Shown here piece by piece: positions 4,480-45,943 of a DNA stretch of 64,000 bases; position 1 is the stretch's first letter; each line of letters begins with the position of its first letter. This DNA comes from Trichopria drosophilae (Eukaryota; Arthropoda; Insecta; Hymenoptera; Diapriidae), in assembly GCA_030407085.1 (NCBI GenBank), contig CM059586.1:17998001-18062000 (forward strand). Direction: 5' to 3'. A model generated the notes under the pieces. That model saw only the letters and a program-made list of their open reading frames with translations, made no database searches and was not told the DNA's origin. The position numbers and the translations under genes are program-made.

Positions 4480-4534
4480 CGCCCGAACAGGGACTCGAAC
4501 CCTGGACCCTCAGATTAAAAGTCTGATGCTCTAC
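4480..4534 (-). pseudogene. tRNA-Lys 3' part (nt 19-73), locus 2
   Basis: Identical to nucleotides 19-73 of the intact tRNA: target copy GTAGAGCATCAGACT, anticodon loop, T-arm with box B, 3' acceptor strand. It stops exactly where the poly(T) of element E1 begins (4535). The matching 5' part is at 9500-9532; the 15 nt at 4520-4534 and 9500-9514 are the target duplication. Confidence 0.95.
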
Positions 4535-4882
4535 TTTTTTTTTTTTGTAATGTTTATTTATTGGATTTGATCAGTCATTTGGTCAGGTTACATAAACATT
4601 TAAAAATTCTCCTTGCTTTTACATTTTATATTTCATAGACATATATAGGCCTCGCAGGCATCTCGTATGTTGTCGTGGTAGTTGGTGTGATTGTGTGACG
4701 GGTGTATTCCGCGCGGGGAAAATGAGCGCTAGCTTTGGTTATCAGTAAGGGAAAAACAGTTCAGAAAAAAAAACCCTTGGTATTTCGCGTTTTGTTTATA
4801 GGTGTTATATTTACAGATATTTACAGGTTGCTAGGGCATAGCATTCCGATGAATGTCATTGGATAGAGTGCAGTGGTAGCGA

Positions 4883-7507
4883 TTAGAGCAAGTCAGTGGT
4901 TATAATTTGTTCGGTCGTTCGTTTTCGTTTGGCGCGTTTGCGAAGGTCTTCCATATATTTGTCATCTGTGGTTAACCACCATAGATTTTTGTTGTTAGCA
5001 CGACTAGTGTTTGTATAGTCTCGTTGTGGGATCTGGGTCGAATATTTCAGGTAATTATCTAGATTTTCGGTAGAGATTAATTCAACGTATTTTAATTTTT
5101 TGTTTGCCTGGTGTCTTGGCCAGTGGTAGATTATCGGGATGTTATTTTGGTTTTGTATGAGTCCAAATTTGTCCAGAGCGGGGAAGTGATGAGGACTAAT
5201 GTCGCCATTAATGCAGTCTTTTTTTGTTTTCTGGTATGATTTAGTTAGGTTTTTGGCGATTTTATAAGTTTCTTCGTTTTGGGGTAGCGATGAGTATTGG
5301 TTTCTATTGATATTTATTAAGAAGTTATCTATTCTAGGTATGTTAGCTTTATCGTAGATTGTTTTGTTGCTAGGTCTTTTGAGGTAGTTAGATTCAGGTG
5401 TTCTCTGTAGTCGAAGACATGTGCGGAGGCAGGCTCTTTCGAATGTGCGAATTTTTTCCATTTGTGAAGCACTGATATTGAACCAGGATGGGCAGGCGTA
5501 CGAGATTATTGGTCGGATGAGTGCTGTATAACAAATAATTTTTGTTCGGCTGGTGAGGTGTTTAGAGTGAAAAATTTTGGAGTTAGCGTGGAATGCTGCT
5601 TTGGCTTTTTTGATCTGGGTCGTAATATGTTGATTTAGTCGGAGTAGTTTGTCTAGGTGAACTCCGAGATATTTTACATTTTTTTTGTGCGGAATTGGTA
5701 TGCTCGTATTGTCAACTGGGTTGTGGATTTGGATTTGGAAAGAGTTCCAGTTAATTCTTTTCTTGCGAGATAGATTGTCGAGGGGAGTGCGGAATGCGAT
5801 CGTTTCAGATTTCGTTGGGTTGATTTGGAGATTCCAAGTTAGATAGTATTTGTTTATTTTGTTGACAATATCTTCGAGTTTGTTTTGGATTTCAACGGCT
5901 TCGGTTCCTGAGACTGTTATAATTAGATCATCCGCGAATGCTATCGATTTGGTGTTGTTTGTATTGAGTCCGAAAAGGTTTAGTAAGGCTGCATTGTAAA
6001 TATTAAAGTAAAGTGGTGATGTCACTGCTCCTTGTTGTAGTCCTTCTTCTATGTAGAAGGTTAGGGATGATTTTACCGAATTTAGAGACGTATGGAATTT
6101 CCGGTCTTTTAATTGATTCTCGATTATGTATAATAAGTGAAGGGGGATGTTGTATTTCTGGAGTTTGTATAATAGTCCGTCGATCCAGACTGTGTCGAAG
6201 GCTTTTTGCAGATCTATTAGGCATGCTCCGGTCAATATTCTCTTAGATAGATTGGAAATTATGTTGTACAATAGTGTGTTTATAGCTAGCGTAGTGGATT
6301 TATTGCGTCGGAATCCATACTGGTTTTCCGGGATTATATGGAGATCGTCACAGAATTTTGTCATTTGTGTGGTGATTAAAATTTCCAGAATTTTTCCCAA
6401 GCATGGGAGAAGACTAATTGGTCGGTAACTAGATGGGTTATTTGGGTTTTTGTCCTTTTTAAGTATCGCTATTATTTTTGCAGTTTTCCAAATCGTGGGG
6501 AAATAACTGTTGTTTATTGCGTTGTTGTATACGGTCGTCAGTGCTTTTAAGATGTTTGGTGGAAGGTGTTTTAGAATGATTGGAGGGATTTCGTCTGGTC
6601 CCGAAGAAAGTTTGTTTGGGAGCTTTTTCAGTATTATTTGTAGATTTGTAGTGGTGGTGAACGGTGCGTATTTTATGTGGGGTGTTTGGGGATGCAGTGC
6701 TGGATTATCGTCTGTAAATGATGTGATGGTGGTGTTGTTCGCTTTGTGTCGATTAATCTCTTCTCTTATTTTTTGAGTCGCATTTATGATGATAGGTCGG
6801 AGTCTGTTGCCGGGAAGGAGCGTGGTTTTCTTGTTGATACCTTCAAAGTGAAGTCCCATTATGTTGAGAATTGCATCTGGGTTTGTGATAACAAAATTGT
6901 CGTTTATGATTTGGATGTTTTCAGTGTTGATGTTTAGGTTTTCTAGAATTTGTTGGTCATGGGTTGGAATATGAAGTTTTCCGATGTCTGGTGGTTCTTT
7001 TGGGCGAAAAATATTGTTAATTTTGGGGAAAAAATCGCTATTTTTGTGTGATATTTTCTTAGCTTGGTTGGCCCAGTAGCTGTTTACACTGATAGAGAAT
7101 TCTTTTCTGATATTATAATTTATTTGGTTGAGAAGATCTTTTGTTTGGGCGAGGAGATTTGTGTTGTGATTGGGGTTTGCGTATAAACTATTGAGTATTG
7201 ATCGGAGGGATGATTTTATTTTTTTGAATTTGTTTATTTTGGGGTTGACATATTTTTGCGAACTATTATTTGGGATGTATTTTGGTACTGTATGCTGAAT
7301 TGCTTGTAATATGTTTTCGTTAAGGTTTGTGATATATTGATCTATTTCGTCGTTTGATAGGTTACGATTGGTGGGTATTTCTATACTAGAGTTTGTTGTC
7401 AGGTAGTCAGAAAAAATTTTCCAGTTCGTATTCTTGTATGTGTAGGAGTGTTTGGGGTTGGGTGGGGGGATTGTGATAGAAATATTTGTTTGTAGATTAA
7501 GGTCCAT
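4883..7507 (-). CDS. E1 ORF2: reverse transcriptase with endonuclease remnant (family A)
   Basis: 874 codons in this frame. The first residues still show the end of the APE-type endonuclease domain; its SDH motif, YDSDHNAI, starts just upstream of the first Met. RT landmarks follow in order: SSYRPISLLPCLGKILEILI (about 365), GFRRNKST, motif A LIDLQKAFDTVW, motif B GLQQGAVTSPLYFNIY, motif C FADDLI, motif D NPTKSETIAF, motif E VKYLGVHLDKLLRLN. A conserved C-terminal region with WWLTTDD and a basic KRAKRKR tail ends the protein. The RT carries out target-primed reverse transcription of the element RNA on the nicked tRNA gene. No RNase H domain is seen. The frame is uninterrupted through RT, but the protein lacks most of its endonuclease, so E1 could move only with help from an intact relative. 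Confidence 0.92.
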   Translation of the reverse strand: MDLNLQTNISITIPPPNPKHSYTYKNTNWKIFSDYLTTNSSIEIPTNRNLSNDEIDQYITNLNENILQAIQHTVPKYIPNNSSQKYVNPKINKFKKIKSSLRSILNSLYANPNHNTNLLAQTKDLLNQINYNIRKEFSISVNSYWANQAKKISHKNSDFFPKINNIFRPKEPPDIGKLHIPTHDQQILENLNINTENIQIINDNFVITNPDAILNIMGLHFEGINKKTTLLPGNRLRPIIINATQKIREEINRHKANNTTITSFTDDNPALHPQTPHIKYAPFTTTTNLQIILKKLPNKLSSGPDEIPPIILKHLPPNILKALTTVYNNAINNSYFPTIWKTAKIIAILKKDKNPNNPSSYRPISLLPCLGKILEILITTQMTKFCDDLHIIPENQYGFRRNKSTTLAINTLLYNIISNLSKRILTGACLIDLQKAFDTVWIDGLLYKLQKYNIPLHLLYIIENQLKDRKFHTSLNSVKSSLTFYIEEGLQQGAVTSPLYFNIYNAALLNLFGLNTNNTKSIAFADDLIITVSGTEAVEIQNKLEDIVNKINKYYLTWNLQINPTKSETIAFRTPLDNLSRKKRINWNSFQIQIHNPVDNTSIPIPHKKNVKYLGVHLDKLLRLNQHITTQIKKAKAAFHANSKIFHSKHLTSRTKIICYTALIRPIISYACPSWFNISASQMEKIRTFERACLRTCLRLQRTPESNYLKRPSNKTIYDKANIPRIDNFLININRNQYSSLPQNEETYKIAKNLTKSYQKTKKDCINGDISPHHFPALDKFGLIQNQNNIPIIYHWPRHQANKKLKYVELISTENLDNYLKYSTQIPQRDYTNTSRANNKNLWWLTTDDKYMEDLRKRAKRKRTTEQIITTDLL

Positions 7508-7763
7508 AATTATTGCGTTGTGATCACTGTCATAGGTATGTATTGGGATTTTGTTATTGACGAGGTTGTTAAGTTGAAGACGGGTGTCTATGAGACATAG
7601 ATTTTGATAAATAGGTTTCGATAAATTCGGTTAGGTCTTGTCGTCGGTTGTGGGTTATTATAGAGTTTACGTTGATTGCGGCTATTTTTAGCTTACTTGC
7701 TGTGAAATTATGAGGATATTCGGATCTATTTGATCTTCGATGGGTGTTGTGGTTTATGGCCAT
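7508..7763 (-). pseudogene. E1 ORF2 start: N-terminal endonuclease fragment with internal deletion
   Basis: ORF2 begins at 7763 and overlaps the ORF1 stop by 10 nt (ATGGCCATAA). It reads KIAAINVNSIITHNRRQDL, the beta-strand that opens APE-like endonucleases. At about 7608 it jumps straight to the region before the final SDH motif, in another frame, and stops after 64 codons. By comparison with family B (14033-12225) roughly 150-170 residues are missing, including the Glu and Asp-Asn catalytic motifs. This is a deletion rather than a point mutation, because the sequence on both sides stays well conserved. Confidence 0.85.
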
Positions 7764-9184
7764 GATAGGTTCAGGTGATTGTACAATTTATTGATTTTGG
7801 CAGTGTTGAATTGGACCGTTTCATGAATAGCGGTTAGTTGGGGTACTATATTTTGTAAAATGTCAGCTTTGAATTTGGTAAAAAGGTCAGTTAGATTTTG
7901 CATGATAATAGGTTCTGTGCTATGGGATTGATGTTGGTAAGTTGGCGTGTTGTTCTGTGAGGTGGGGTTAGGAATATTTGCCTTGGCTGTTTGTGCATAG
8001 GAGATACCGGGCGTGACTCGTTTTTGAATGGATGCAATTTTGTTGGTGGCATTTCTCTCTTTAGTTTGCGTTATTATGTCATTTGCAAATTTATAAAAGG
8101 GACAGCCTCTGTATGAGGCTGGATGGCCTTCGCTTTCACAGTTAACGCAGTATGGAGCGGAATCGTCTGACTTACTCTTTTCGCATTCGCCTGGGTTGTG
8201 TGTTAATTTGCATTTCACACACCTAAACTTCATATTGCAGTTAGAACTGCTATGCCCTAGTCTTTGGCAGCGATGGCATTGGAAAATACCGCGTTTTCTG
8301 AACTGCTCCCACCTTACTGATTGGCAAGCTATTTTATTTATTTTTAGTAGTTCCTGTATGTCGCTTTCAGGGGATAGTTGTACTAGGAAGCAATCGGGTC
8401 TTGATGCCGATGATATCTTGTTCAGTTTAGTGATTTTTATAATATTTATATTTAATCTATTTATGTCATTAATTTCGTTCTTTATTTCGTTCTCGATTTC
8501 TTCTGCTGAGAATTGGCCATATATGCCTTTGAGAACAGTATTCTTGTTTTTTAAGTGGTTGGGTGTGAAAGAAAAATATTGAATTTGGTTCTTGGTTAGG
8601 ATATCATTTACCGATTGCTTGCTAGCTTCACTATTTACATAAATAATGTGGTTTTTGCTGTCATTATTGTTGGAGGTGTTTTTTATTCTGAATTGACTCG
8701 AATTTAATTTTGCAGAACTAAGGAGAGCTATTAGATCTTTTGTAGAAATATCGTAAGTATGAATAGGAGGGGGTTTGCGGTCGCGTACATTTGTAGTTGT
8801 GTTGGTTACCGGGTTTACGGAAGCTGTAGAAGTTCTTGAAGGTCCTGGTGTTGGTTTCGTTTCGTCGTCGTTGGTAGTAAGTTGCGATAGCGGGTCGAAC
8901 TTGTTTTTGGTTGGGATTGTGGCCTGTGATTCCATCGTGTTGTTTGTGACGTCAGTGGTATCGTCATCGGTAGTTTCCATCTCTATTATTTCGTTTTGTT
9001 TGATTTTTCTGGCAGTGTTTAGGTTGGGTACAACGCTGCTTTTTAATTTGCCCATTTCTTTTAGCGCCGCTTTATATTGGGCCTCGATTGATGTCGTAGC
9101 TGGCATTTTGGCTTGCTTTTTGCTTTGTGTTGTCGCTGTCAATGTTTTACCGGTCTCGGCTTTTCGTTTGGCGAGAGGCGCCAT
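7754..9184 (-). CDS. E1 ORF1: gag-like nucleic-acid-binding protein (family A), intact
   Basis: 476 codons beginning MAPLAKRK; the MAP/MVP start recurs in the other copies, which supports this Met. Layout: basic, Ser/Thr-rich N-terminus; a conserved AQYKAALKEMGKL segment near 35; a folded region at about 140-290 resembling the PRE_C2HC domain of Jockey-type ORF1s; then three zinc knuckles. The knuckles are CX2CX4HX4C (CHRCQRLGHSSSNC), CX2CX3HX4C (CVKCKLTHNPGEC) and CX2CX4HX6C (CVNCESEGHPASYRGC). The tail is a Gln/Asn-rich linker and a short amphipathic end. Such proteins bind element RNA and form the RNP. This is the only apparently undamaged ORF1 in the window. Confidence 0.93.
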   Translation of the reverse strand: MAPLAKRKAETGKTLTATTQSKKQAKMPATTSIEAQYKAALKEMGKLKSSVVPNLNTARKIKQNEIIEMETTDDDTTDVTNNTMESQATIPTKNKFDPLSQLTTNDDETKPTPGPSRTSTASVNPVTNTTTNVRDRKPPPIHTYDISTKDLIALLSSAKLNSSQFRIKNTSNNNDSKNHIIYVNSEASKQSVNDILTKNQIQYFSFTPNHLKNKNTVLKGIYGQFSAEEIENEIKNEINDINRLNINIIKITKLNKISSASRPDCFLVQLSPESDIQELLKINKIACQSVRWEQFRKRGIFQCHRCQRLGHSSSNCNMKFRCVKCKLTHNPGECEKSKSDDSAPYCVNCESEGHPASYRGCPFYKFANDIITQTKERNATNKIASIQKRVTPGISYAQTAKANIPNPTSQNNTPTYQHQSHSTEPIIMQNLTDLFTKFKADILQNIVPQLTAIHETVQFNTAKINKLYNHLNLSWP

Positions 9185-9499
9185 CTTACGGGCTAGCGAG
9201 GGATTTCGTCAAAACCGCGAGGGTATTGACGATCGCTTTCCCGCGCGCCTGCGCGGGGCTCGTTCGTGACTTTTTAGGTTGGTTATTTTTTTAATGTATG
9301 ATTGTTCAATAATTAAAGGTTGATGATCTTTAGCACTGTTCACACTTATTGTCGCTTTAATCGCTCGTCTGGCCGACTAATGTTTTCGCGTTTTTCGTGT
9401 CGTTTTGGCAGAAAGACGGTTTTATGTTGGTGCGGAAGGCGATCGACCGTTTCGCTTGTTGTCTGCTGTCAGACTCCCAGTCTCATGCTCTACCGACTC
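9185..9499 (-). promoter_or_regulatory. E1 5' UTR / presumed internal promoter
   Basis: GC-richer than the rest of the element and closely matched by the 5' UTR of the family A copy at 51236-51404. LINE 5' UTRs normally carry the internal promoter; that role is inferred, and no promoter motif is certain. The last 21 nt (9479-9499) are an extra near-copy of the tRNA target, AGTCTCATGCTCTACC plus five bases. Confidence 0.55.
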
Positions 9500-9532
9500 A
9501 GTCTGATGCTCTACCGACTGAGTTATCCGGGC
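9500..9532 (-). pseudogene. tRNA-Lys 5' part (nt 1-33), locus 2
   Basis: Nucleotides 1-33 of tRNA-Lys: acceptor 5' strand, D-arm with box A, first half of the anticodon stem. There is one substitution relative to the intact gene (GAGTTATCC on the plus strand in place of GAGCTATCC). It ends just before the anticodon, where element E1 starts. Confidence 0.93.
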
Positions 9533-10333: not shown

Positions 10334-10387
10334 CGCCCGAACAGGGACTCGAACCCTAGACCCTCAGATTAAAAGTCTGATGCTCTA
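10334..10387 (-). pseudogene. tRNA-Lys 3' part (nt 20-73), locus 3
   Basis: As at 4480-4534 but one nucleotide shorter at the insertion junction (ends ...CTCTA before the T-tract instead of CTCTAC), and with a change in the variable region (CCCTAGACC on the plus strand). Confidence 0.92.
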
Positions 10388-10749
10388 TTTTATTTTTTTT
10401 TTTTTTTTTTTTTTTTAATCATTTATTTGTTTATCCTTTATTTTTACATTGATATGTGGCACATGAGCAGCACAATAAATAAAAGCCCGACTCGTTGGAT
10501 TGTATTGTACATAGTTTTATGGTCCCCGCTGGAGCGCTCAAAACTTGTATGTGCCGTTTGTTCTGAAATTTTTAGCTGTACATGTTTTTTATAATTTTGT
10601 AGACAACAAACATTATATCGCTGATGATGGTTGAGGAGGCCGGAAAAAAGTAAAGGATCGAAATATATGCTTAAAAAACCGGTCTATCATAATTACATTT
10701 TTATACTAGATTTAAACTAAGTCAATAAACATTTAACATTACGCTATAT

Positions 10750-12306
10750 TTAACTTTTTTTCCTCTTTGTCCGTTTTCTAATTTCATCTAAAACGAAATT
10801 GTCTTGAAGCCACCAATATTTTGTAACTTTGAGACGACTCGCGTCTTTTTTGTCTCGCTGTGAAAGTGCCGTGGAGTACATTAGGCGTGGAATGTCATTT
10901 CTATTTGGGGGAATTTTTTTGTTTTTGGAGTGCCGTTTCCAGTGATAAATTATGGGGTCATTATTTACGTCCTGAATAAGTCCTTGTGCATCCAAGATCG
11001 GGAACATCTCTGGCGGTGCGTAGCCGGATGCTTTGCATTTTTCGGCATATCTATGGTCTATATTGCAGATATTTTCAATTATCGGATTTTCTTTTATGTG
11101 TTTGGTTTTTGCGAAGTAATCGCGGCATAACTGGATGATGAAGTTGTCTATTCTTTTAATATTTGCTTCGTTGTAGATTGTGACATTTTTTTTATATTTT
11201 CTGAATTCGGATGAAACCGATCTGTACGATTTAAGGCATGCTCTGACACACGCTCTTTCAAAAACTCTAATTTTTTCAATTTGGTGAGCGCCTTGGTTGA
11301 ACCAAACTGGAGCAGCGTAAGTTATTATGGGTCTTATTAAGAGTAAATAACAGATTATTTTTGCTTTTTTACTTAAGTGGTTGTTGTAAAATAGTCTGTG
11401 AAGGGAATTGAATGCTTTTTTTGCTTTATCTAGTTGAATGTTAGGGTGTTGGGAGAGCCTGAGTAGATTATCAATTCGTATGCCTAAATATTTGACTGAG
11501 TTTTTATGGGGAACTGATATGGCCGTATTGTTATTATTTATTTTAATTTCGAATTTGTTCCAGTTTAGTTTTTCTCTAGAACTTAATCTATCTATGGGGA
11601 GTCGTATTAATATGGTCTCGCATTTTTGCGCGTTGATTTTTAAATGCCATGTTTTGTAATAGCTGTTTATATTGTTTACAGTTTTTTCTAGTTTGTCTTT
11701 TAATTCATCAGGTGATTTACCGGCTACATAAACAATTAAATCATCAGCATATGCTATAGCATATGTGTCATTGTCGTTATTGAGGTCGAATAAATTGAGG
11801 ATATTACTATTGTATATGTTAAACAGAATTGGTGCGTTAACTGTTCCTTGCTGGAGGCCTTCGGTTATTTCGAATTCTACTGATTTGGTGGTATTATTGC
11901 AGTTTATGATGAATTTACGGTTTGATAGCATATTAATTAGTAGGAAGAGGATATGATCAGGAAAATGTAATTTCGACATTTTATAAATTAAACCTTTAAT
12001 CCATATCGAGTCGAAAGCTTTTTCAATATCTATGAGGCAAGCTGCGATGTGTTGGTGTTTATTTAGATGTTTACACGTATCTGTAATAAATTTATTTACC
12101 GCATGCGTTGTTGAGTGATTAAACTTAAATCCGAACTGTTGGTGAGGTATTATTTTATTTTTGTTGCAGAATTCTGTGATATACTTGTTTATTAATATTT
12201 CAAAAATTTTACTTATATTAGGGGTTAGAGTGATTGGTCTATGGCTAGCAGGTTTAATTGGATCTTTGCCTTTTTTTTTATCGGCACAACTTTGGCTATT
12301 TTCCAA
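10750..12306 (-). CDS. E2 ORF2 second part: reverse transcriptase (family B)
   Basis: About 518 codons, effectively from the A-run at 12271-12279 downward. RT landmarks: SHRPITLTPNISKIFEILI, HQQFGFKFNHSTTHAVN, motif A LIDIEKAFDSIWIKG, motif B GLQQGTVNAPILFNIYN, motif C YADDLIVYVAG, motif D INAQKCETILIRLP, motif E VKYLGIRIDNLLRLS. The C-terminal region has YWWLQDNFVLDEIRKR and a basic tail, matching family A. It belongs with the endonuclease part at 12225-14033. The two are in different frames, joined by a -1 step at a run of nine A, so this is not an independent gene. Either an indel or ribosomal slippage separates them. Confidence 0.88.
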   Translation of the reverse strand: MENSQSCADKKKGKDPIKPASHRPITLTPNISKIFEILINKYITEFCNKNKIIPHQQFGFKFNHSTTHAVNKFITDTCKHLNKHQHIAACLIDIEKAFDSIWIKGLIYKMSKLHFPDHILFLLINMLSNRKFIINCNNTTKSVEFEITEGLQQGTVNAPILFNIYNSNILNLFDLNNDNDTYAIAYADDLIVYVAGKSPDELKDKLEKTVNNINSYYKTWHLKINAQKCETILIRLPIDRLSSREKLNWNKFEIKINNNNTAISVPHKNSVKYLGIRIDNLLRLSQHPNIQLDKAKKAFNSLHRLFYNNHLSKKAKIICYLLLIRPIITYAAPVWFNQGAHQIEKIRVFERACVRACLKSYRSVSSEFRKYKKNVTIYNEANIKRIDNFIIQLCRDYFAKTKHIKENPIIENICNIDHRYAEKCKASGYAPPEMFPILDAQGLIQDVNNDPIIYHWKRHSKNKKIPPNRNDIPRLMYSTALSQRDKKDASRLKVTKYWWLQDNFVLDEIRKRTKRKKS

Positions 12307-14033
12307 CTGTTTGGATAATGACCGTTGTTAATCAAGTTATTGAATAGTATCGCATAATCGGTTATGATTTTTTTGGGGATCTGTTTTAATACTAAATTTG
12401 GAATTTTATCGACCCCTGTTGACGTTTTGTTTTTTAGTTGTTTTATTATTTCCGTAAGATCGTGCGGGTTAGTGAATGGAATGTTCAAATCAGGGGGTGG
12501 TTTAGGGTTTATTGCTGTGTTTAAGCTTGTGAAATTAATGATAGTAATGTGGTTTGTTGATCTATTATTTATTTTATCTGTTAAGTTTTTGAAATTGTGT
12601 TCTATTAAGTTGTATAGTCTATTGTTATCGTCTACTATCTTTGGTTTATATATTTGAGCATAGTGCCATCCAATAATATTTGAAATATTTTTTGTATCGG
12701 TAAAAAGATAATCGTTTGTGGTTTCTTGTGCCTCGTTAATGTTGAGATTTAATTCGTTAATACAATTTATATTATCTTTTGTGACTACAATTTTTTTAAT
12801 TTCATCCCTGTTTTTATTACGGAACATTCTATTTATATCCGGGAAAAAGGTATCCGATTTTTTATAATTTATTTCTTTAGCTTTGTTGGCCCAGTATTTA
12901 TTACATGCTTTTGAAAATTCTTTTTGTATTTCGTAATTGTTAAGTTTAATTTGCTCAGTAATCCATATTTTATGGTTAATGACTAGCGGATTGTTTGGAT
13001 TTGAATTTCTTTTCGTTTTGTTTAGCGCGGTGATTAAAGCTGATTTTTTCTTATGTAATTTTTCGATCTTTTTGTTAACATATTTTTGTGTGCTGTTAAC
13101 ATGTTCGCGTTTGGGTATTGTTTCATTCATTGCTGTTAATATTGTGTCATTTATTTTATTTAGAGAAATTTCTATTTCGTTGTTATTTAAATTTCTATCT
13201 ATTGGTATTATCGAACTATAGTTAGTATTAATATAATGCTGGAATTTTGTCCATTTCGTTTTTGCAAAATTGAAAGAGTTAATAGGAGGATTGGATACAA
13301 TATTTAAGTTATTTCTAGTTAAGTTTATATTTATGCAAATAGCCCTATGATCACTGTCGTAATCCAGTGTTTTTAATTTCCGGTTAGTTAAATTAGTTAG
13401 TTTCAGTCGCGTGTCGGCTACGCACACGTCCAGAAATGATCCCGATCTAGGAAAGGTGGGTTCTATAGGAGTGTATATTTTGAACCTGTACTCAATCGTC
13501 TTATTGTTTATCCAATTTTTTAGGTAGCCGCCTCGAGTATTAGACCGCGAGTCGCCCCACTCAGTTAGTCTAGTATTTAAATCCCCGGCTATAACAAAAT
13601 ATACATCTAAACTTAACAAGTTATTTTGTGAAAATAAATTATCTAGTTCTCTAATAAAGGTTATGTCATTGTGTCCTGGTGCGTATGCACTTACTATAAC
13701 GAGTTCATCTCTTCCGCACTTAATTTTAACCGCACTTGTTTCTATAGTATATTTCTCGAACGGTGGTAAAAAATTAATCACTTCAAACTTGATGCTCCTT
13801 TTTATGAGGATTCCGGTGCCTCCTCCTTGAATTGCTTCAGGTCGATCGTTTCGTAGTAGGTTATAATCTTGAAAACTTATTTTGTGCGTATGATTTAGTT
13901 TTGTTTCGTTTAATAGTACGATATCCGGCTTATGTTTTTCAATGAATCTGACTAGGCTGTGCCGTTTGGCATTTGTTACAATCGAGTTAACATTGACGGA
14001 AATTATGTTGATGTTTCCAATGTTTACGGCCAT
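12225..14033 (-). CDS. E2 ORF2 first part: APE-type endonuclease and linker (family B)
   Basis: 602 codons from an ATG that overlaps the ORF1 stop by 10 nt (ATGGCCGTAA). Endonuclease motifs in order: INIISVNVNSIVTNAKR (5-22), LLNETKLN with the catalytic Glu (about 40), GGGTGILIKR (about 72), AGDLNTRLTEWGD with the Asp-Asn pair (about 150), FLDVCVADTRL (about 200), and YDSDHRAI, the final Asp-His pair. A long Asn/Lys-rich linker follows, up to the start of RT (DKIPNLVLKQIP). This enzyme is expected to nick the tRNA gene between GCTCTAC and CGACTG on the non-coding strand; that role follows from its family and the fixed junctions. The last ~20 codons are an out-of-frame tail after the A-run. 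Confidence 0.88.
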   Translation of the reverse strand: MAVNIGNINIISVNVNSIVTNAKRHSLVRFIEKHKPDIVLLNETKLNHTHKISFQDYNLLRNDRPEAIQGGGTGILIKRSIKFEVINFLPPFEKYTIETSAVKIKCGRDELVIVSAYAPGHNDITFIRELDNLFSQNNLLSLDVYFVIAGDLNTRLTEWGDSRSNTRGGYLKNWINNKTIEYRFKIYTPIEPTFPRSGSFLDVCVADTRLKLTNLTNRKLKTLDYDSDHRAICININLTRNNLNIVSNPPINSFNFAKTKWTKFQHYINTNYSSIIPIDRNLNNNEIEISLNKINDTILTAMNETIPKREHVNSTQKYVNKKIEKLHKKKSALITALNKTKRNSNPNNPLVINHKIWITEQIKLNNYEIQKEFSKACNKYWANKAKEINYKKSDTFFPDINRMFRNKNRDEIKKIVVTKDNINCINELNLNINEAQETTNDYLFTDTKNISNIIGWHYAQIYKPKIVDDNNRLYNLIEHNFKNLTDKINNRSTNHITIINFTSLNTAINPKPPPDLNIPFTNPHDLTEIIKQLKNKTSTGVDKIPNLVLKQIPKKIITDYAILFNNLINNGHYPNSWKIAKVVPIKKKAKIQLNLLAIDQSL

Positions 14034-15521
14034 TTTAGTTTTAAATTATTAAGTATAAACTCTATTTTCTCTGTGTTGGTGTAGATTAGTTGGCGGAGTT
14101 CTCTATTCTGTGATGTGATTATTTCAGTTATGTTCGTTTTGAAATCTTGGATCGAGTGTATAAGCTGTGATATTTCTGAGCTTGTATCAGTATTATTGTT
14201 ATTTATAATCTGCCTTCTTAGGTTTTCTTGAATTGGCCGTTGCCTTGTTACCGCATGTGCATATGAAGTTGATGTATTAGCATTGGGAGTAAGACGCTGT
14301 AATCTCAAGTTCGTTTTATTTTGGGTGCTGCTTTTTTTTTGTTCGTTAACTGCATTTTGTGCAAATTTAAGGTAGGGACATCCTCTATAGTTTGCGGCAT
14401 GGCCGACATTTTTGCAATTTACACAACTAGGGGGATTTTCTGTATCATTTGGCGCTCTGGTGCACTTCCCTGGTTCATGCTTTTCACAACATTTGACACA
14501 TCTATAGTCCAGGTTGCAATTGGCACTAGAGTGGCCAACTCGTTGACATTTGAAGCACTGGAAGACTTTTTTCTTCCGAAATGTCTCCCAACTGATTAAT
14601 TGACAAGCTATTTTATTTATTTTCGTCAGATTCTGGGTTGTACTATCGGCGGAAATCTGTACTAGTAAATAGTTGTTGTTTGTCCCATTGTTGGTTTGAA
14701 TTTAGTAACTTTTAAAATGCTTACGTTTTCTATCTGAAGTTCTAGTCGTTCGTCTTTTATTTCTTCAGGGGTAAATTCTTCGTTAAGACCTTTAAGCACC
14801 AAAAGTTTCTTCTTTTCGTTGTTTAACGTATACGTGAAAAATTGTATTTTTTGTTCTCTGAGAATGTCTCGTGCCTCATTATAATGCTCTCTTGTATTTG
14901 TATATATGGCTTGTTCTTGATTATTTTGGTCTCTTATCTCTTATATGGAAATTTTGTTTATTAATTTTTTTTATTAATATCTCGATTAGCTTTTTGGTCG
15001 TTACTGAGCGACAGTAAATTGGCGGTGGCCTGGATGCTTTGTTATGAGGTGTCTTTTCTTGCTCTTGTTTTGGTGTATTTTTAGGTTCATTTTGACTCTG
15101 TATGTTATCTAGAGTTATGAAATCGGTTTTCATTTTCAATCGTTAACGAGTCTTGTCGTTTATGTACTCCGCGACCCTTCTTTTTCGCCTGTGTCCATTC
15201 CTCACTACTACTGTCCTCTATCGGTAATTGGGTCAAGTCGGGATTCTCTAACGAGCTTTGCGAGTAGCAATCCATGTTGTCATCGTTCATGTTCTCTCCA
15301 TCAGGTGTCACTTTTTTTTTACGCGGCACTAAATTCGACTTGACGCCATGTACATTTCTACCTAGATCTTTCATGGCTTGTTGAAATTCTCGGTCCACGG
15401 AATTTGTTAACGCAGTTAACTTTTTAGGTTTTTGCGAGTTCGGGGGACTAACCTGTGACATGTTCTTCCTTTTTAGTCCTGACGTCCCGGCAACAGCTGG
15501 TGTCGGCGCCACGGGCGCCAT
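14024..15521 (-). pseudogene. E2 ORF1: gag-like protein, frameshifted (family B)
   Basis: Starts at 15521 with MAPVAPTPAVAG; the MAP start is shared with E1 and E7. It carries LKRKN, SPPNSQKPKK and VDREFQQAMKDLG, then breaks near 15115, 14930 and 14700, where the frame changes. The zinc-knuckle part (about 14360-14560) reads CFKCQRVGHSSANC, CVKCCEKHEPGKC and CVNCKNVGHAANYRGC, the same three spacings as E1. It runs on open to the stop at 14024 (...KLKWP). At least three frameshifts make it non-functional unless they are assembly errors. Confidence 0.82.
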
Positions 15522-15769
15522 GTTGCCGAGGGATGCGCGAGGTGCGCGGGAATCCTGCCGCACTAATGTTTCTCAGTTTTTGTCTCACTATCACTGTTTG
15601 TTTTTATTGTTCACACGAGATTAATGGCGGTGGACGTGTGTTATCATTAACTGTAATGTTATGAACTACAATTGTTCTCACTGGGCTCCTGCACTTTGGT
15701 ATTTTGCCGGTAATTCACACCGTGTTTCAGAGCGCGATCCTCGCTCGACGAATGCCCACGGCGGACCCC
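15522..15769 (-). promoter_or_regulatory. E2 5' UTR (family B)
   Basis: Related to the segments at 25737-25977, 38017-38251 and 39680-39898, which lie at the 5' ends of E3, E7 and E8. The 5' end reads GGGGTCCGCCG on the element strand, directly after the target copy. An internal Pol II promoter is expected here but not proven. Confidence 0.5.
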
Positions 15770-15802
15770 AGTCTGATGCTCTACCGACTGAGCTATCCGG
15801 GC
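15770..15802 (-). pseudogene. tRNA-Lys 5' part (nt 1-33), locus 3
   Basis: Identical to nucleotides 1-33 of the intact gene, so box A is complete. It partners 10334-10387. Confidence 0.95.
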
Positions 15803-16528: not shown

Positions 16529-16583
16529 CGCCCGAACAGGGACTCGAACCCTGGACCCTCAGATTAAAAGTCTGATGCTCTAC
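16529..16583 (-). pseudogene. tRNA-Lys 3' part (nt 19-73), locus 4
   Basis: Identical to nucleotides 19-73 of the intact gene. It abuts the poly(T) of E3. Its 5' partner is 11.4 kb away at 28031-28063, beyond three retroelements. Confidence 0.95.
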
Positions 16584-17000
16584 TTTTTTTTTTTTTAATT
16601 TATTTATTGTTCATCTTTTTAATTAACAGTGGAGTATTTTTATGGGCAACACAATAAACAAAAGCCCATTACGTTGAATCAACGCTTAACAAGTTTTTGA
16701 CCCTCGCAGGGGTGCTCGAAACTTAAAAATTGACATAGGTTCATTAATTTTTGTCTTACAACTTTTTTGATAAAACGCAATATCACACAATTTTGTCGTG
16801 ACTTCCGCCTTTATTTTTAAGGCGTTACGGAGAGCCCAGGAAAAGTGAAAAGGAATTAAAAAATTTTAATAAAAACCGGGCAAACATAACTACAAACTAA
16901 CACTTATTAACTAAGAACAATAGTCTTGGACTTACAATAATGGTTTTGGAATAGCAATTTCGACAATGTAGTAGATAAACGACGGCAAAGACATAGGTAT

Positions 17001-18535
17001 TTAATCTTGTTTTTTCCTTCCAGTCCGTTTCCATATCTCTTCTAGGACTATGTTATCTTTAAGCCACCAAAACTTTTTGGTGTTGGGGCGACTCGCATCT
17101 CTAATATCTCGAGGAGGTAGCGCGGTGGAATATATAATTGGTGGGGTGTTGTGTTTATCGGTTCGTATTTTTTTGATTTTGCAATGTCGTTTCCAATGGT
17201 ATATTATCGGAATATTATTTCCATCTTGGACCAACTTTTGAGCGTCCAAGCTCGGGAACGCCTCCGGAGGCATGTAACCTGATGTCTTGCATTTTTCGAT
17301 ATAGTTATTGCTTATATTTTTGCATAAGTTTTTTATAAGTGGATTGTTTACATTACTCGTATTACTAAAATATTCTCGACATACTTTAATTACGTGGTTG
17401 TCAAATCGCTGTATGCCCGCTTTTCTATATAGCACTGTGTTTTTATTAAATTTCCTGTAGTTGGATGAGACCGAATGGTACGATTTATGGCACGCTCTTA
17501 GACAGGCTCTTTTGAACATTCGTATCTTTTCCATCTGGTACAACCAAGGAGCGTACCAGATGGGAGCAGCATATGACATAATCGGCCTGATCAGGAGTTG
17601 GTAGCAAATAGTTTTTGCTTTTTTGCTCAGGTATTTGTTGTAGAATAGTTTGTGAAGTGTGTTAAACACCTTTTTGGCTTTACTTAGTTGTAATATTGGG
17701 TGTGTTGATAAACTGAGCAGATTATCAATATTTACACCCAAATATTTAACTAAGTTCTTGTGTGGAACAGGGGTGGTGGTGTTGTACTGGCTGTCGTTTA
17801 TTTTTCTTTTAAAATTTTTCCAGTTTAATTTTTCTCTCGCACTAAGTCTGTCAATGGGGAGTCTGATTAAGATGGTTTCGCATTTTTGACTATTGATTTT
17901 TAGGTGCCAGGTTTTGTAGTAACTGTATATATCGTTAACTATTTTCTCTAATTTATTTTGTGAGGCAATTGGCGATTTACCAGCTAGGTATACAATCAGA
18001 TCATCGGCGTATGCGATCGCGTATGTGTCATTGTCTTTGTTTAGATTGAATAGGTTCAGGATCTTGCTGTTATAAATATTAAATAACAGGGGCGCATTAA
18101 CTGTACCTTGCTGGAGATCGTCGGTAATCGGGAATTGCTTGGAATTGTTGATTTTCCCACTGATTACTACGAAAGATCTGTTGGATAGCATATTTATCAG
18201 AAGTGCAATTGTATGTTCCGGGAAGTTAGCTTGAGTCATTTTGAATATTAGGCCTTTGACCCATACGGAATCAAAAGCCTTTTCAATATCAATCAAGCAG
18301 GCAGCTATGTGCTGGTGGTTATTGAGGTGTTTGCACGTGTCGGTAAGGAATTTGTTTATTGCGTGTGTGGTTGAGTGCATAAATTTGAAGCCGAATTGCT
18401 GGTGTGGAATGATTTGATTTGCATCGGAGAACTGAGTGAGATGTTTGTTAATAACTATTTCGAAAATTTTGCTGGTATTAGGGCATAAACTGATAGGTCG
18501 GTGACTCGCTGGTTTAGACGGATCTTTGTCTTTTT
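17001..18535 (-). pseudogene. E3 ORF2: reverse transcriptase part (family B)
   Basis: The frame is open from about 18535, with the first ATG only at 18380. RT motifs: HQQFGFKFMHSTTHAIN, motif A LIDIEKAFDSVWVKG, motif B LQQGTVNAPLLFNIYN (preceded by DD instead of the usual EG), motif C YADDLIVYLAG, motif E VKYLGVNIDNLLSLS, and the C-terminal FWWLKDN...RTGRKK region. The catalytic YADD is intact, but the upstream half of ORF2 is deleted and broken, so no full enzyme can be made. Confidence 0.85.
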
Positions 18536-18856
18536 TTTAGTATAGGTATAACCTTTGCTGTTTTCCAACATTGTGGGTAGTAACAGTTATTAATTAAGTT
18601 GTTGAAAAGTTGCTGGAATTTAATCCATTTCGTTTTTTTGAAATTACAGCTTCCAATAGGAGGAGTGATTGTTAGGATTAAATTACTTATAGCCAAATTA
18701 ATATTTATTATAATAGCTTTATGGTCACTATCGTAATATAGGGTTTTCATCTTATTATTAGTCAGGTTAATTAATTCAAGACGTGTGTCAGCGATACATA
18801 TGTCCAAAAATGATCCCGAGTTTGGGAATGTTGGTTCCGCTGGGGTGTAACCTATG
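18514..18856 (-). pseudogene. E3 ORF2: endonuclease C-terminal fragment fused to RT start
   Basis: Reads EPTFPNSGSFLDICIADTRL and YDSDHKAI (final endonuclease Asp-His), then KKTKWIKFQ, and jumps to FNNLINNCYYPQCWKTAKV, a sequence that in E2 lies about 250 codons further on. The join is an internal deletion of the linker. The fragment continues the endonuclease fragment at 22647-23199 across the foreign insert. Confidence 0.8.
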
Positions 18857-18879
18857 TGCGAAATGCCGATGCTGACCAT

Positions 18880-19650
18880 ACGGCCCAGTATTGGCCCAGC
18901 GTTGGCAGCCGAATTTCGGCTGCCGATGCTGGCCCAACGTCGGCAACTTCACTGTGCCAGAATCGGGCCAGAATTGGTAGCCGATACTGGCTATAACAAA
19001 TTGCCAAACTTCGGCTGAAAACTGGCCAACGCATCGGGCCAGGCATGGAAAATTGATCTCATAGGTATTTCTCCCGATCGTCGTCCCAGCGTCGGCCCAA
19101 TATTGGGCCCGAGTATCGGACGAAGTCTGGCAAAGTGATAGTGCAAAATCTCGGCCCAGCGATGGAAACATTCAGGACCGAACATCGGACCAATTATAGC
19201 AAATTTATTTCATACAAGGTACTGCCGATCGTTGGCCCACAGTTGGTCCAAAACCGACCCGAGCATCGGACCAACCCCGTCGAATTAATAGTGCCAAATC
19301 TCGGCCCAGCATTGACAGCCGACTTTCGGCTACCGATGCTGGCCCAACATCGGCAACTTGACTGTGCCAGTATAGGGCCAGCATTGGTAGCCGATTCTGG
19401 CTATAACAAATTGCCAAACTTCGGCTGAAAACTGGCCAATGCATCGGGCCAGGCCTGGAAAATTGATCTCATAGACATTTCTCCCGATCGTCATCCCAGC
19501 GTCGGCCCAATATTGGGCCCGAGTATCGGACCAAGTCTGGCAAAGCGATAGTGCCAAATCTCGGCCCAGCGATGGAAACATTCGGGACCGAACATCGGTC
19601 CAAGCCTAGCAAATTTATTTCACACAGAATATTGCCGATCGAATATCGAC
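18880..19650. repeat. GC-rich tandem repeat, ~410-bp period, about 1.9 copies
   Basis: The segment starting GGCAGCCGAATTTCGGCTGC at 18904 recurs at 19314 (GACAGCCGACTTTCGGCTAC), and the two copies stay alignable for nearly 300 bp. The repeat is full of short imperfect palindromes of the GGCCCAA/TTGGGCC and CCGATGCTGG type. The open frames in it on both strands follow from its GC content. Confidence 0.85.
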
Positions 19651-19654
19651 CATA

Positions 19655-19790
19655 TCGAAAACGATGCAAGATAGAGCAAAAATGTACTAAACCTTTTTGG
19701 TAGAGGAGGAAATTTCCTACAAAAAAGTCCGGGAGAGCTCTAGTCTAAAAAGTATAACTTAGGCGGGAGCAAGCCTCGAAGAAAGCATCG
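19655..19790. repeat. dispersed repeat, copy 1 (second copy near 32028-32165)
   Basis: Shares with 32028-32165 the blocks TATCG...AAAACGATGCAAGATA-like, GGAAATTTCCTACAAAAAAG and GAGCAAGCCTCGAAG/CGAGCCCGAAAG in the same order and strand. Nature unknown. Confidence 0.6.
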
Positions 19791-20570: not shown

Positions 20571-20574
20571 TTAA

Positions 20575-21128: not shown

Positions 21129-21132
21129 TTAA

Positions 21133-22622: not shown

Positions 22623-22646
22623 GGGCCGTTACGAATTTCGCATATG

Positions 22647-27667: not shown

Positions 27668-27682
27668 AGTCTGATGCTCTAC
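27668..27682 (-). repeat. tRNA target copy between E4 and E5
   Basis: Exact 15-nt copy of tRNA nucleotides 19-33, directly followed on the plus strand by the T-tract of E5. Confidence 0.93.
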
Positions 27683-28030: not shown

Positions 28031-28063
28031 TGTGTGATGCTCTACCGACTGAGCTATCAGGGC
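28031..28063 (-). pseudogene. tRNA-Lys 5' part (nt 1-33), locus 4
   Basis: Matches tRNA 1-33 with substitutions: one in the 5' acceptor strand (CTATCAGGGC on the plus strand) and three in the first five bases of the target copy (28031, 28032 and 28034). It partners 16529-16583. Confidence 0.88.
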
Positions 28064-38251: not shown

Positions 38252-38266
38252 AGTCTGATGCTCTAC
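38252..38266 (-). repeat. tRNA target copy between E7 and E8
   Basis: Exact copy of tRNA nucleotides 19-33, followed on the plus strand by the short T-tract of E8. Confidence 0.92.
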
Positions 38267-39898
38267 TTTTCTTTTGTAATGTTTATTTATTGGCTTTGAT
38301 CAGTGATCTGGTCAGGTTACATAAACATATAAAAATTTTCCTTGCGTTTACATTTTATTTTATAGACATATATAGGCCTCGCAGGCATCTCGTATGTTGT
38401 CGTGGTAGTTGGTGTGATTGTTTGTGTGGCGGGTGTATTACGCGCGGGGAAAGTGGGCGGTAGCTCTGGTTATCATTAAGGGAAAAACAGTTCAGAAAAA
38501 AACCCTTGGAATTTCGCGTTTTGTTCATGGATGATATATTTACAGTTATTTACAGGTTAATAGGGCATAGTATTTAGATGAATGTCATTGGGTAGAATGC
38601 AGAGATAGCGATTACAGCCAGTGGCTACAATTTGTTTGGGGCGTTCGTTTTCGTTTAGCACGTTTGCGAAGGTCTTCCATATATTTGACATCTGTGGCTA
38701 ACCACCATAGATTTAGATTCGGATTCGGAAAGCTATTATTTCAGATTTTGTGGGATTTATTTGTAGATTCCATGTTTGGTAATATGCGTTTATTTTGTTA
38801 ACTAGTGTTTCGAGAGTTTCTGGAATTTTAACAGATGTATTGTCAGTGACTGTGATGATCATCGGCAAATGCTATTGAGGAGGTGTTGTTGGTATTCAGG
38901 TGGAATAGATTAAGGATTGCGGCATTATAGATATTGAAATATTTCGGAGATTTTAGTGCTCCCTGTTGGAAACCCTCTTCGATGGTGAAGGTGAGAGAGG
39001 ATCTGGAGGAATGGTGTAGAATTTACGGTCTTTTAGTTGGTCGGCTATTAGGTTAACTAGGTGTGGCGGTGTGTTTTATTTGATTAGTTTGTAGAGGAAT
39101 CCGTCTATCCATACTGTGTCGAATTCTTTCTGTAAGTCTAATAAGCATGCTCCGGTCGGTTTTATCTTTGAGAGGTTGTCTATCGTTTTATTGAGGAGGG
39201 AATTTATTGCGTGAATCGTAGATTTGTTCCGTTGAAATCCGAATTGATTGTGAGGTATTATTAAGTTGTCAGTACAGAAGAGATTTAGTTGTTTCGATAT
39301 TAATATTTCTAGTATTTTTCCAAGGCATGGAAGGAGGCTGATCGGTCGGTAGCTAGATGGTTCAAGAAAAAGGAAAAAGGGCAAATAGGAAGAGGAGAAA
39401 GAGTAAATGCACGAGCAGCACCAAGACTCAGCACCAGCACGAGCAGCTTCAAGACCAGCATTAACGGAATAGATTTCTAACGGGTCTCTAACGGATCTCT
39501 AACGGATCTCTGTTGGAAATCTGTTGGAAATCCATATTTTATGGTTAATAATTAGTGGGTGGTTTGGATTTGTGTTTATTTTCATTTTGTTTAGTGCGGT
39601 GATTAAAACTGATTTCTTCTTATGTAATTTTTCTATTTTTTTATTAACATATTTTCGTGTGCTATTTACATGTTCACCGTGGGAATGCTACCGCACTAAG
39701 GTTTTAGTTTTTGTCCACTTTCACTGTTTGTTTTTGCTATCCACACGCGCTTAATGTCGCTGGATGTGTGTTATCATTAACGATAATGATATGAACTGCA
39801 GTTGTTTTCACTGGGCACAGGCACTATGGTAATTTTGCCGGTAATTCAAACCGTGTATCAGAGCGCGATCCTTGCTTGACGAATGCCCACGGCGAACC
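38267..39898 (-). mobile_element. E8: mosaic of family A 3' half and family B 5' pieces
   Basis: Family A poly(A) and 3' UTR (38267 to about 38610), the last codons of ORF2 (KRAKRKR region), an internal deletion near 38713, then RT from motif D back to SYRPISLLPCLGKILEI (39362). An A/G-rich stretch of unclear origin follows (39363-39530), then family B linker sequence (39530-39680) and a family B 5' UTR (39680-39898) ending at the next target copy. The two families are therefore joined inside one target-bounded unit. Confidence 0.8.
39076..39384 (-). pseudogene. E8 RT fragment (family A)
   Basis: Open block with SSYRPISLLPCLGKILEI, QFGFQRNKSTIHAIN and motif A LLDLQKEFDTVW, where Ala before Phe-Asp is replaced by Glu. 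Downstream motifs B to D are present but frameshifted (38700-39060), and the FADD region is damaged. No functional enzyme. Confidence 0.8.
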
Positions 39899-39913
39899 AG
39901 TCTGATACTCTAC
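39899..39913 (-). repeat. tRNA target copy between E8 and E9 (one mismatch)
   Basis: AGTCTGATACTCTAC on the plus strand, one difference from the standard AGTCTGATGCTCTAC, followed by a long T-tract. Confidence 0.88.
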
Positions 39914-40342
39914 TTTTTTTTTTTTTTTTTTTTAAATTCATTTATTCGTTAAGCCTTTATATAATACAGAACAAGTATCGATTATAAGGGCCACACAAAC
40001 AAATAAAAAGCCCAACGCAATGATTAGAGGGGTATCTAAATTTTCGTTTTTGACCCTCGCAGGGGTGCTCAAAACTTATCTCTGTTGTGGGTTACATTTG
40101 TTTTTTTATAATTTCGCGTAAATTTGTATTAATTTGACGAACAAAGTTTAATGACAATGATAATACAACAATTGCATATTTGATTGCCCTGGTCTTTAAT
40201 GTAGAAATACTGTTTATCGATGTTTTTGGATAGTATTTCGATTATTTTTGTTTGCGGTGGTGCGACAATAAATTGGCGGCGGTCTGGAGGCTTTGTTTTC
40301 TTTGCAGGATTCCGGTGTTTGATGTGCTAAATTATTAGATTC
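39914..40342 (-). mobile_element. E9: short internally deleted family B element (429 bp)
   Basis: 3' UTR of subtype B3 (39914 to about 40180, nearly identical to E5) fused directly to a piece of ORF1 (the PPPIYCR region, about 40181-40330), then the target copy. All of ORF2 and most of ORF1 are missing. A compact, SINE-sized derivative. Confidence 0.82.
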
Positions 40343-40375
40343 AGTCTGATGCTCTACCGACTGAGCTATCCGGGC
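40343..40375 (-). pseudogene. tRNA-Lys 5' part (nt 1-33), locus 6
   Basis: Identical to nucleotides 1-33 of the intact gene. It is the 5' end of the E9-E8-E7 array; the corresponding 3' part is not seen beside E7. Confidence 0.93.
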
Positions 40376-40429: not shown

Positions 40430-40460
40430 TCGTCGAACCCTGAAATATCTGATGCTCTAC
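40430..40460 (-). pseudogene. tRNA-Lys fragment with internal deletion, at the 3' end of E10
   Basis: Plus strand CGAACCCTGAAATATCTGATG then CTCTAC: the T-arm segment CGAACCCTG is joined to the target end TCTGATGCTCTAC, with about 14 nt between them missing or replaced. The spacer and the tRNA share GTCGAA/CTCGAA at the join, suggesting recombination at microhomology. Confidence 0.65.
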
Positions 40461-40881
40461 TTTTTTTTTTATTTATTATTAATTCTTTTCATATATGATG
40501 AGTACATGAGAATGATGGCCGCACAATAAACAAAAGGCCCAATAACGATGAGGATACATAGAGAGTTTTTGTCCCTTGCTGGGGCGCTCGAAACTTATAT
40601 TCTATTGTTGGTTCTTATATTTTATAACTATAATCTAATATTACTACTCATCATTAAATGTGTTTATATGTTAAGTTACGTCTTCGTTAAAGGACGTTGT
40701 GAAGCTCGGAAAAAAGTAAATAATTAAAATTTCAAACAACAACCGAGCTAGCATGATTGATGTCTTATCTCAATACTAGTCTACGACTTGCGGCTGTATT
40801 TGTATGTGCGCGTATAAAACGGGTATTATAAAAATAATAAAACTTAAAATTAAGTACAATTACATATCTGACCTGAGAGAT

Positions 40882-44236: not shown

Positions 44237-44333
44237 GTTGACGCTAATTGCACACAGAAAGGAAAGGAACTTACAATTTCAAAGCTTACATGAACGATAT
44301 GCGGGGAAATTTTTTCCAGGGAAATAAATTCAG

Positions 44334-45107: not shown

Positions 45108-45119
45108 TCATAAAAAAAT

Positions 45120-45174
45120 CGCCCGAACAGGGATTCGAACCCTAGACCTTCAGATTAAAAGTCTGATGCTCTAC
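45120..45174 (-). pseudogene. tRNA-Lys 3' part (nt 19-73), locus 7
   Basis: Nucleotides 19-73 with three substitutions (GGGATTCG, CCCTAGACC and CTTCAG on the plus strand), adjoining the T-tract of E11. No 5' part remains, since E11 is truncated at 45943. Confidence 0.92.
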
Positions 45175-45943
45175 TTTTTTTTGTAATGTTCATTGATTGG
45201 CTTTGAACAGTGATATGGTCAGGTTACATAAACATATAAAAATTTTCCTTGCGTTTACATTTTGTTTTATAGGCATATATAGGCCTCGCAAACATCTCGT
45301 ATGTGTCGTGATAGTTGGTGTGATTGTTTGTGTGGCGGGTATATTACGCGCGGGGAGAGTGGGCGCTAACTCTGATTATCATTAAGAGAAAAGCAGTTCA
45401 GAAAAAAAACCCTTGGCATTTCGCGTTTTATTTATTGGATGATATATTTACAGTTATTTACAGGTTGATAGGGCATAGCACGCAGATGAATGTCATTGGG
45501 TAGAATGTAGACATAGCGATTAGAGCAAGTCAGTGGTTATAATTAGTTTGGGGCGTTCGTTTTCGTTTAGCACGTTTGCGAAGGTCTTCCATATATTTGT
45601 CATCTGTGACTAACCACCATACATTTTTATTGTTAGCTCGAGTGGTGTTTGCATATTCTCGGTGTGGGATCTGGGTCGAATATTTCAGACAATTATCTAG
45701 ATTTTCAGTAGAAATTAAATCAATGTAACTCAATTTTTTGTTTGCCTGGTGTCTTGGCCAGTGGTAGATTATCGGGATGTTATTTTGGTTTTGGATGAGT
45801 CCAAATTTGTCCAGGACGGGGAAGTGATGAGGACTAATATCGCCATTAATGCAGTCTTTTTTGTTTTTTAGTATGAATTAGTTAGGGTTTTGGCGATTTT
45901 ATATGTCTCTTCGTTTTGGGGTAGCGAGGAGTAATGGTTCCTA
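45175..45943 (-). mobile_element. E11: 3' end of a family A element
   Basis: Poly(A), a family A 3' UTR closely similar to E1 and E8, and the last ~100 codons of ORF2 (including the ENLDNCLKYSTQIPHRDY-like region as YSTQIPHREY, WWLVTDDKYMEDLRKR and KRAKRKR). It is cut off at 45943 by the next insertion. Confidence 0.88.

Follow-up and report, generated by a model that had tools for sequence, protein, structure and literature searches.

In the 64,000-nucleotide stretch of the Trichopria drosophilae genome analysed here (the window; C5:17998001-18062000 in an assembly of 936 Mb and 509 contigs, in which contigs C1-C6 each exceed 100 Mb), tRNA-Lys genes are repeatedly interrupted by poly(A)-tailed elements of several diverged types. 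Very probably these are non-long-terminal-repeat (non-LTR) retrotransposons of a Jockey-like lineage, with an endonuclease of the apurinic/apyrimidinic type (APE), which use target-primed reverse transcription to enter tRNA-Lys genes of both anticodons at a single, exactly defined internal site.

The 15-bp target GTAGAGCATCAGACT has 15 matches in the window at no more than two mismatches, every one on the minus strand, compared with a mean of 0.09 matches in dinucleotide shuffles. Nine of these copies adjoin a poly(A) tail (minus strand, high ends at 4534, 10388, 16583, 25992, 27682, 38266, 39913, 40460 and 45174), with the tails ending right before GTAGAGC, which starts at G19 of tRNA-Lys in standard numbering. 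A first-pass annotation, made from the letters alone, had described at least nine poly(A) 3' ends of diverged types at the same base of tRNA-Lys; this was borne out for nine, with a copy of G19-T33 adjoining each and six 3'-end types represented: A (4534, 38266, 45174), B (27682, 39913), B' (10388), C (25992), D (16583) and E (40460). Beyond the target copy, four of the nine (4534, 10388, 16583, 45174) continue into the tRNA-Lys 3' half, four (25992, 27682, 38266, 39913) run into the next element with no tRNA 3' half, and at 40460 the sequence is degraded. Four further target copies sit between a tRNA-Lys 5' half and an element (9514, 15784, 28045, 40357), one belongs to an intact tRNA-Lys gene (2615) and one (9493) is a 5' piece carried within an element. 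The array of elements lies upstream of the intact gene as read along the minus strand. Imperfect copies, with one or two mismatches, make up three of the nine linked to poly(A) (10388, 39913, 40460) and include the 5' copy at 28045. Most element 5' ends come right after T33, the base preceding the anticodon, so that the 15 bp from G19 to T33 are duplicated; both copies are present in seven window elements, in agreement with the duplication of tRNA positions 19-33 reported at first pass. An extra tRNA 5' half at about 31279-31296 ends at G18 and carries no target copy. The features of the window are as follows.

2560..2634 (-): intact tRNA-Lys(UUU) gene with empty target (ARAGORN; Rfam tRNA, 74.1 bits)
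4480..4534 (-): tRNA-Lys 3' part (G19 to end) right after a type A poly(A) tail; target copy 4520-4534
4535..9499 (-): type A element with a 12-base tail
4883..7630 (-): what remains of type A open reading frame 2 (ORF2), including the reverse transcriptase; 915 codons between stops (PF00078, E 2.3e-35)
7754..9208 (-): type A ORF1 of 484 codons between stops, in which zinc-knuckle motifs are visible by eye
9500..9532 (-): tRNA-Lys(UUU) 5' part (G1-T33) preceding the type A element; target copy 9500-9514
10334..10388 (-): 3' part of tRNA-Lys that follows the type B' tail; target copy 10374-10388, one mismatch
10389..15769 (-): type B' element, 5,381 bp
10750..12327 (-): frame encoding the reverse transcriptase of type B' (PF00078, E 5.3e-36)
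12225..14045 (-): type B' endonuclease frame (PF03372, E 2.5e-14; PF14529, E 4.4e-12)
14024..14701 (-): part of type B' ORF1 containing a zinc knuckle (PF00098, 21.5 bits, cut-off 20.8)
15770..15802 (-): tRNA-Lys(UUU) 5' part preceding type B'; target copy 15770-15784
16529..16583 (-): 3' part of tRNA-Lys that follows the type D tail; target copy 16569-16583
16584..25977 (-): type D element plus further inserted sequence (reverse transcriptase frame 17001-18536, endonuclease frame 22629-23174)
25978..25992 (-): target copy separating types C and D
25993..27667 (-): 5'-truncated type C element, 91.6% identical to a C2 type C copy
27668..27682 (-): target copy separating types B and C
27683..28030 (-): short type B element, 97.7% identical to C2:35411724-35412064
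28031..28063 (-): tRNA-Lys(UUU) 5' part preceding the short type B element; target copy 28031-28045, two mismatches
38252..38266 (-): target copy between two elements
38267..39898 (-): rearranged element, 5' end type B'-like, 3' end type A-like
39899..39913 (-): target copy between two elements, one mismatch
39914..40342 (-): shortened type B element sharing 98.5% identity across 270 bp with the short type B element
40343..40375 (-): tRNA-Lys(UUU) 5' part; target copy 40343-40357
40446..40460 (-): target copy after the type E tail, two mismatches
40461..40674 (-): type E 3' end, single occurrence in the genome
45120..45174 (-): tRNA-Lys 3' part after a type A tail; target copy 45160-45174
45175..45951 (-): type A 3' part, 88% identical

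For a census of flanks across the genome, the 200-250 bases ahead of the tail of each 3' type served as the query, and a 3' end was counted as complete when the whole query matched at 85% identity or more; whole-genome pattern counts are lower bounds. Complete ends numbered 9 of 15 matches for type A, 3 of 5 for B, 2 of 6 for C and 2 of 5 for D, while B' and E each gave one, plus one partial match, making 18 in total. The first-pass annotation had raised the possibility that copies outside the window would have unrelated flanks, and this did not prove to be the case: all 18 complete 3' ends are located at tRNA-Lys sites, and 17 adjoin a copy of the 15-bp target (0-2 mismatches). This copy is followed by the tRNA-Lys 3' half in 12 cases, by another element in four and, for type E, where it has two mismatches, by degraded sequence. 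In the remaining copy (C2:35645763) the tail, the target and the tRNA 3' half are gone; it ends on the final G of a tRNA-Lys(CUU) gene, followed by the flank that normally lies downstream of such a gene.

Several points weigh against so strict a specificity. The tRNA 3' sequence is degraded or deleted in two of the 18 copies, target copies on both sides were read for just 12 (exact on both sides in eight), and the copies at C2:35696326 and on C228 lack the tRNA 5' half; direct recognition of the D-arm by the endonuclease, as the first-pass annotation had proposed, is putative. Incomplete matches outside the 18 number 6, 2, 4 and 3 for types A, B, C and D and one for B'/E, and the flanks of four (L067-L070) of the eight at 71-77% identity were read. 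Three of these four (L067, L068 and L069, 71-72% relatives of the tails) do not lie in tRNA-Lys, and given these flanks the wider family is not uniformly tRNA-Lys-specific; L067 and L068 are not tRNA-like, and L069 was dropped as a tRNA-like flank at 16 of 36 positions. The fourth, L070 (C6:55822250-55822308), is a 71% relative of the type C tail whose downstream sequence matches tRNA-Lys(UUU) from G19 at 25 of 43 positions, in a comparison chosen among 12 offsets, two tRNAs and four flanks. In a scan of 447,958 positions this score was reached 19 times, and inspection by eye assigned 18 of those to tRNA-Lys copies or junctions. The L070 flank resembles elongator tRNA-Met and may be a second tRNA target; against this, the Rfam tRNA model did not report it at E<=10, and a tRNA-derived short interspersed nuclear element (SINE) would be an equally suitable reading.

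Shared junctions could also have arisen if one or a few original insertions had been multiplied by duplication of tRNA-containing units, with no repeated targeting. Such duplication has taken place, as three window tRNA units have 5' flanks that are 91-98% alike, and the copies at C228:10105 and C2:35696326, which have a common truncation point and are 98.5% identical over 1,017 bp upstream, are one insertion copied, so that separate insertions number at most 17. However, the three duplicated window units hold three different elements (A, B' and B), the junction is common to six diverged 3' types, and type A elements at C2:35413346, C2:35651741, C2:167158576 and window position 9499 have dissimilar outer 5' flanks. 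In particular, identity reaches 99.8% between the type A copy at C2:35413346-35418789 and that at C2:167158576-167164018, and the window copy (4535..9499) is 99.4-99.5% identical to them apart from 508 bp of the endonuclease region that it lacks relative to C2:167158576-167164018. The 400-bp outer 5' flanks of these copies and of the C2:35651774 gene show no mutual similarity. Since copies this alike occupy different tRNA genes with unrelated outer flanks, they record recent movement between tRNA genes, and a single duplicated insertion, which the first-pass annotation had allowed for, does not explain them. We regard duplication without repeated targeting as largely refuted and its remaining probability as very slight. 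In addition, the window type A element, although lodged in a UUU gene, starts with 21 bp (9479-9499) that match a CUU gene, which would fit a transcript brought from a donor copy in a CUU gene. This piece may also mean that transcription can begin within the tRNA half lying upstream at the donor site.

The target had initially been given as tRNA-Lys(UUU), which is correct for C5 but does not hold as the sole target, as the occupied genes outside the window, which lie at 35.41-35.70 Mb and at 167.16 Mb of C2 and on C228, a small contig, are tRNA-Lys(CUU) genes. The CUU-gene 15-mer GTAGAGCATGAGACT differs from the UUU 15-mer by one base. Each of the eight exact 33-base CUU 3' halves found comes after an element tail, and each of the six canonical CUU 5' halves found precedes an element; a ninth CUU 3' half, which has one mismatch, is a remnant that lacks the 5' half. 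A 38-mer spanning the site gave 13 matches at no more than three mismatches: intact UUU genes account for 11, and the other two are a variant of UUU type at C3:117447857 and, at C1:140844070, a copy of CUU type in which bases have changed. No intact canonical tRNA-Lys(CUU) gene was found genome-wide in these lower-bound counts, compared with 11 intact UUU genes. ARAGORN called no tRNA in the altered CUU-type copies L037 (which holds C1:140844070) and L046, and across 30 loci the sole tRNA-Lys anticodon it found was UUU. Every standard CUU gene copy found appears to be split by these elements. Against complete loss, an intact CUU gene may be more diverged, unassembled or allelic. As a tentative proposal, which we hold possible but doubtful, the elements may form a Jockey-like APE clade specialised on the D-arm region of tRNA genes, mostly those for tRNA-Lys but with one relative (L070) in a different tRNA-like sequence, and this clade may have interrupted every canonical CUU gene here. 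Reading of AAG codons would then fall to tRNA-Lys(UUU) only, or to a CUU gene that has diverged or escaped assembly. The apparent occupation of all canonical CUU genes offers a testable case of how far an element can go toward removing an isoacceptor.

We infer the order of the nicks from the junctions, and the identity of the recognising protein from the specificity of insertion. The first nick would fall opposite the G18/G19 boundary in the antisense strand, whose 3' end would prime reverse transcription off the poly(A) tail of the element RNA; the second cut would be made on the sense strand 15 nt downstream, after T33 and just ahead of the anticodon. Insertion duplicates G19-T33 and places the element between box A, upstream of it, and box B, downstream, so that the gene is split. 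Each insertion leaves a target copy at both ends, allowing later elements to land beside earlier ones and arrays to grow. Elements that abut one another with only a target copy between them (25992, 27682, 38266 and 39913) indicate that a whole tRNA gene around the site is unnecessary, and base-exact insertion limited to tRNA-Lys suggests that a protein of the element itself recognises the DNA from the D-arm to the anticodon arm. Targeting might instead be directed by host factors at RNA polymerase III (Pol III) genes, in the fashion of the Dictyostelium TREs, with the endonuclease cutting wherever it is brought. The target is indeed a Pol III gene, and the TRE5 ORF1 protein binds TFIIIB subunits (PMC5911963). 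Yet TREs insert outside genes at variable distances (PMC5911963), whereas complete copies here lie at tRNA-Lys only, at one exact base inside the gene, and the arrays show insertion next to a bare target copy adjoining another element. Host-directed targeting is improbable for these reasons, and we favour recognition by the element's own protein.

PF03372, PF14529 and PF00078 occur together in one 912-codon frame (ORF2), which encodes an APE endonuclease and a reverse transcriptase and begins with the former rather than with a restriction-like endonuclease (RLE). The poly(A) tails, target duplications, 5'-truncated copies and absence of LTRs seen here are likewise those of long interspersed nuclear elements (LINEs). 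Among the folds compared, the endonuclease model aligned best with the TRAS1 endonuclease. The ORF1 zinc knuckle scores above cut-off in B' and below it in type A, where PRE_C2HC is weak (PF00098 and PF07530 are both under cut-off in a near-identical C2 copy) and three CCHC motifs are visible by eye; Pfam detected no RNA-recognition motif (RRM) in ORF1. A protein search returned 177 relatives at E<=1e-10, the best 20 at 40-46% identity; among the 120 of 177 listed most are unnamed, and the names given by the sources are jockey or X-element. The organisms named among them are Hymenoptera (for example Diprion, Anthophora, Halictus, Trichogramma, Fopius, Cotesia, Trichomalopsis) and the fly Lucilia, in keeping with a hymenopteran host. 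The automatic names and the weak ORF1 matches tentatively suggest a Jockey-like lineage; ORF1 of the Jockey clade carries one or more RRMs followed by three CCHC knuckles (PMC4120745).

To relate the types to one another, 144 proteins and four pieces of our own were assembled, of which 106 rows were our own or had at least 640 residues; 13 without enough reverse transcriptase and six more were left out, giving a quick 87-row tree without curated reference elements or R1 reverse transcriptase. Here all four of our types (A, C, B' and D) fall in one 17-row clade with a Shimodaira-Hasegawa-like approximate likelihood ratio test (SH-aLRT) value of 100, within which B' and D cluster with P0001, P0002 and P0059 (SH-aLRT 99), apart from A and C. 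The label for our own sequences needs two changes on the tree, as would be expected if the A/C and B'/D lineages had acquired the site separately and their shared target were convergent, for which Keno and Utopia offer a published parallel of evolution toward one site (PMC4640811). An ancestral site would fit the 17-row clade, 13 rows of which are not our own, equally well, and we consider separate acquisition rather unlikely.

Target sites of comparable strictness are known in APE-type LINEs of the R1 clade, where R1, TRAS and SART target 28S rDNA or telomeric repeats, whereas the relatives of the elements described here are named Jockey or X-element. LINEs specific for one kind of tRNA gene are also not wholly new, as the RLE-type NeSL-1_TV, LIN15_SM and LIN25_SM are specific for tRNA-Pro, -Arg and -Glu genes (PMC4640811). 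In contrast to the target-specific members of that NeSL-related early-branching lineage, which carry an RLE, the present elements are APE-type and occupy tRNA-Lys genes of two anticodons. Dewa, Keno and Mutsu of the Tx1 clade likewise reside at small-RNA gene loci (PMC3706591, PMC4640811), and Keno shares the APE-type endonuclease (PMC4640811), but Dewa inserts in a tRNA-Leu spacer (PMC3706591), Keno in U2 and Mutsu in 5S, none of them inside tRNA-Lys. The Dictyostelium TRE5 and TRE3 elements are tRNA-gene-associated LINEs with an APE endonuclease (PMC5911963, PMC5006619) that insert at variable distances outside the gene via Pol III factors, unlike the base-exact insertions inside the gene seen here. 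Dada-tK does insert at tRNA-Lys genes, but belongs to the DDE DNA transposons of fish (PMC8869645), whereas our elements have a reverse transcriptase and tails. The list of known elements in the first-pass annotation had omitted the RLE-type tRNA LINEs and Dada-tK; its view that no Jockey-type element was known to cut inside one defined tRNA gene agrees with our finding no published APE-type LINE inside tRNA-Lys genes in searches of the PMC literature, subscription papers and Repbase being outside this scope. PMC8232201, PMC10886601, PMC5753468 and PMC9613689 gave no further information on this question. In general terms, tRNA genes have been named as targets of some non-LTR lineages (PMC8869645), and most reported target-specific families belong to the early-branching, Tx1 and R1 groups (PMC4640811). 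New is the occupation of all exact CUU 3' halves and canonical 5' halves found. Strictly site-specific LINEs serve as models for the coexistence of parasite and host and draw attention for the targeted insertion of genes, and a Jockey-like APE lineage with a 15-bp target in a short conserved gene would represent another route to specificity and a compact biochemical target.

Outside tRNA genes and the window, 22 exact 15-mers were rejected as further insertions, having no poly(A) junction. The eight that were read (L001-L008) share one LTR-retrotransposon-like repeat context, in which, at about locus position 1501, a dispersed repeat contains tRNA-Lys positions 18-33 in sense orientation (GGTAGAGCATCAGACT). 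A pol-like frame is present in L001, and in L005 the downstream TGGCGCCCGAACAGGGAC resembles a tRNA-Lys primer-binding site; it would be unusual for an LTR element to bear part of the tRNA that primes it. A motif of A8, a gap of 30-38 and box B occurred 98+33 times versus 6+7 in the reversed control, with long A runs counted repeatedly and letters given for only three rows among the first 100 places listed, and we conclude nothing from it on other tRNA genes. The junction pattern gave no match in viral_contigs or genome_contigs, and no ORF2 relatives were found in viral_contigs, which says little, as these collections are not insect genomes. Among the nine Rfam matches of the window at E<=1, none was a hepatitis delta virus-like ribozyme at an element 5' end.

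Short copies of 306-348 bp, of types B and D, occur in the window (type B, 27683-28030) and at C2:35411724-35412064 (type B) and C2:35655222-35655527. The short B and D copies start at corresponding points (TAGT...GCCCGGTTTTT), and two short type B copies start almost at the same base in different tRNA genes; they are perhaps a mobile short form of the 3' untranslated region rather than chance truncations. Within the LINE array, 33259-34902 (+) is an open frame for a DDE transposase (PF03184, PF03221 and PF04218; CENP-B-like, Tc5-type DNA-binding domains). Frames at window 55260-55760 (-) and L051 5827-6402 (-) resemble reverse transcriptase and GIY-YIG parts of Penelope-like elements. Finally, a tRNA-like repeat (GTAGGTCGCTGGACTACGGATTCC...GTTCGAATC), probably a tRNA-derived SINE, is present in several copies in the scanned C2, C5 and C228 sequence.

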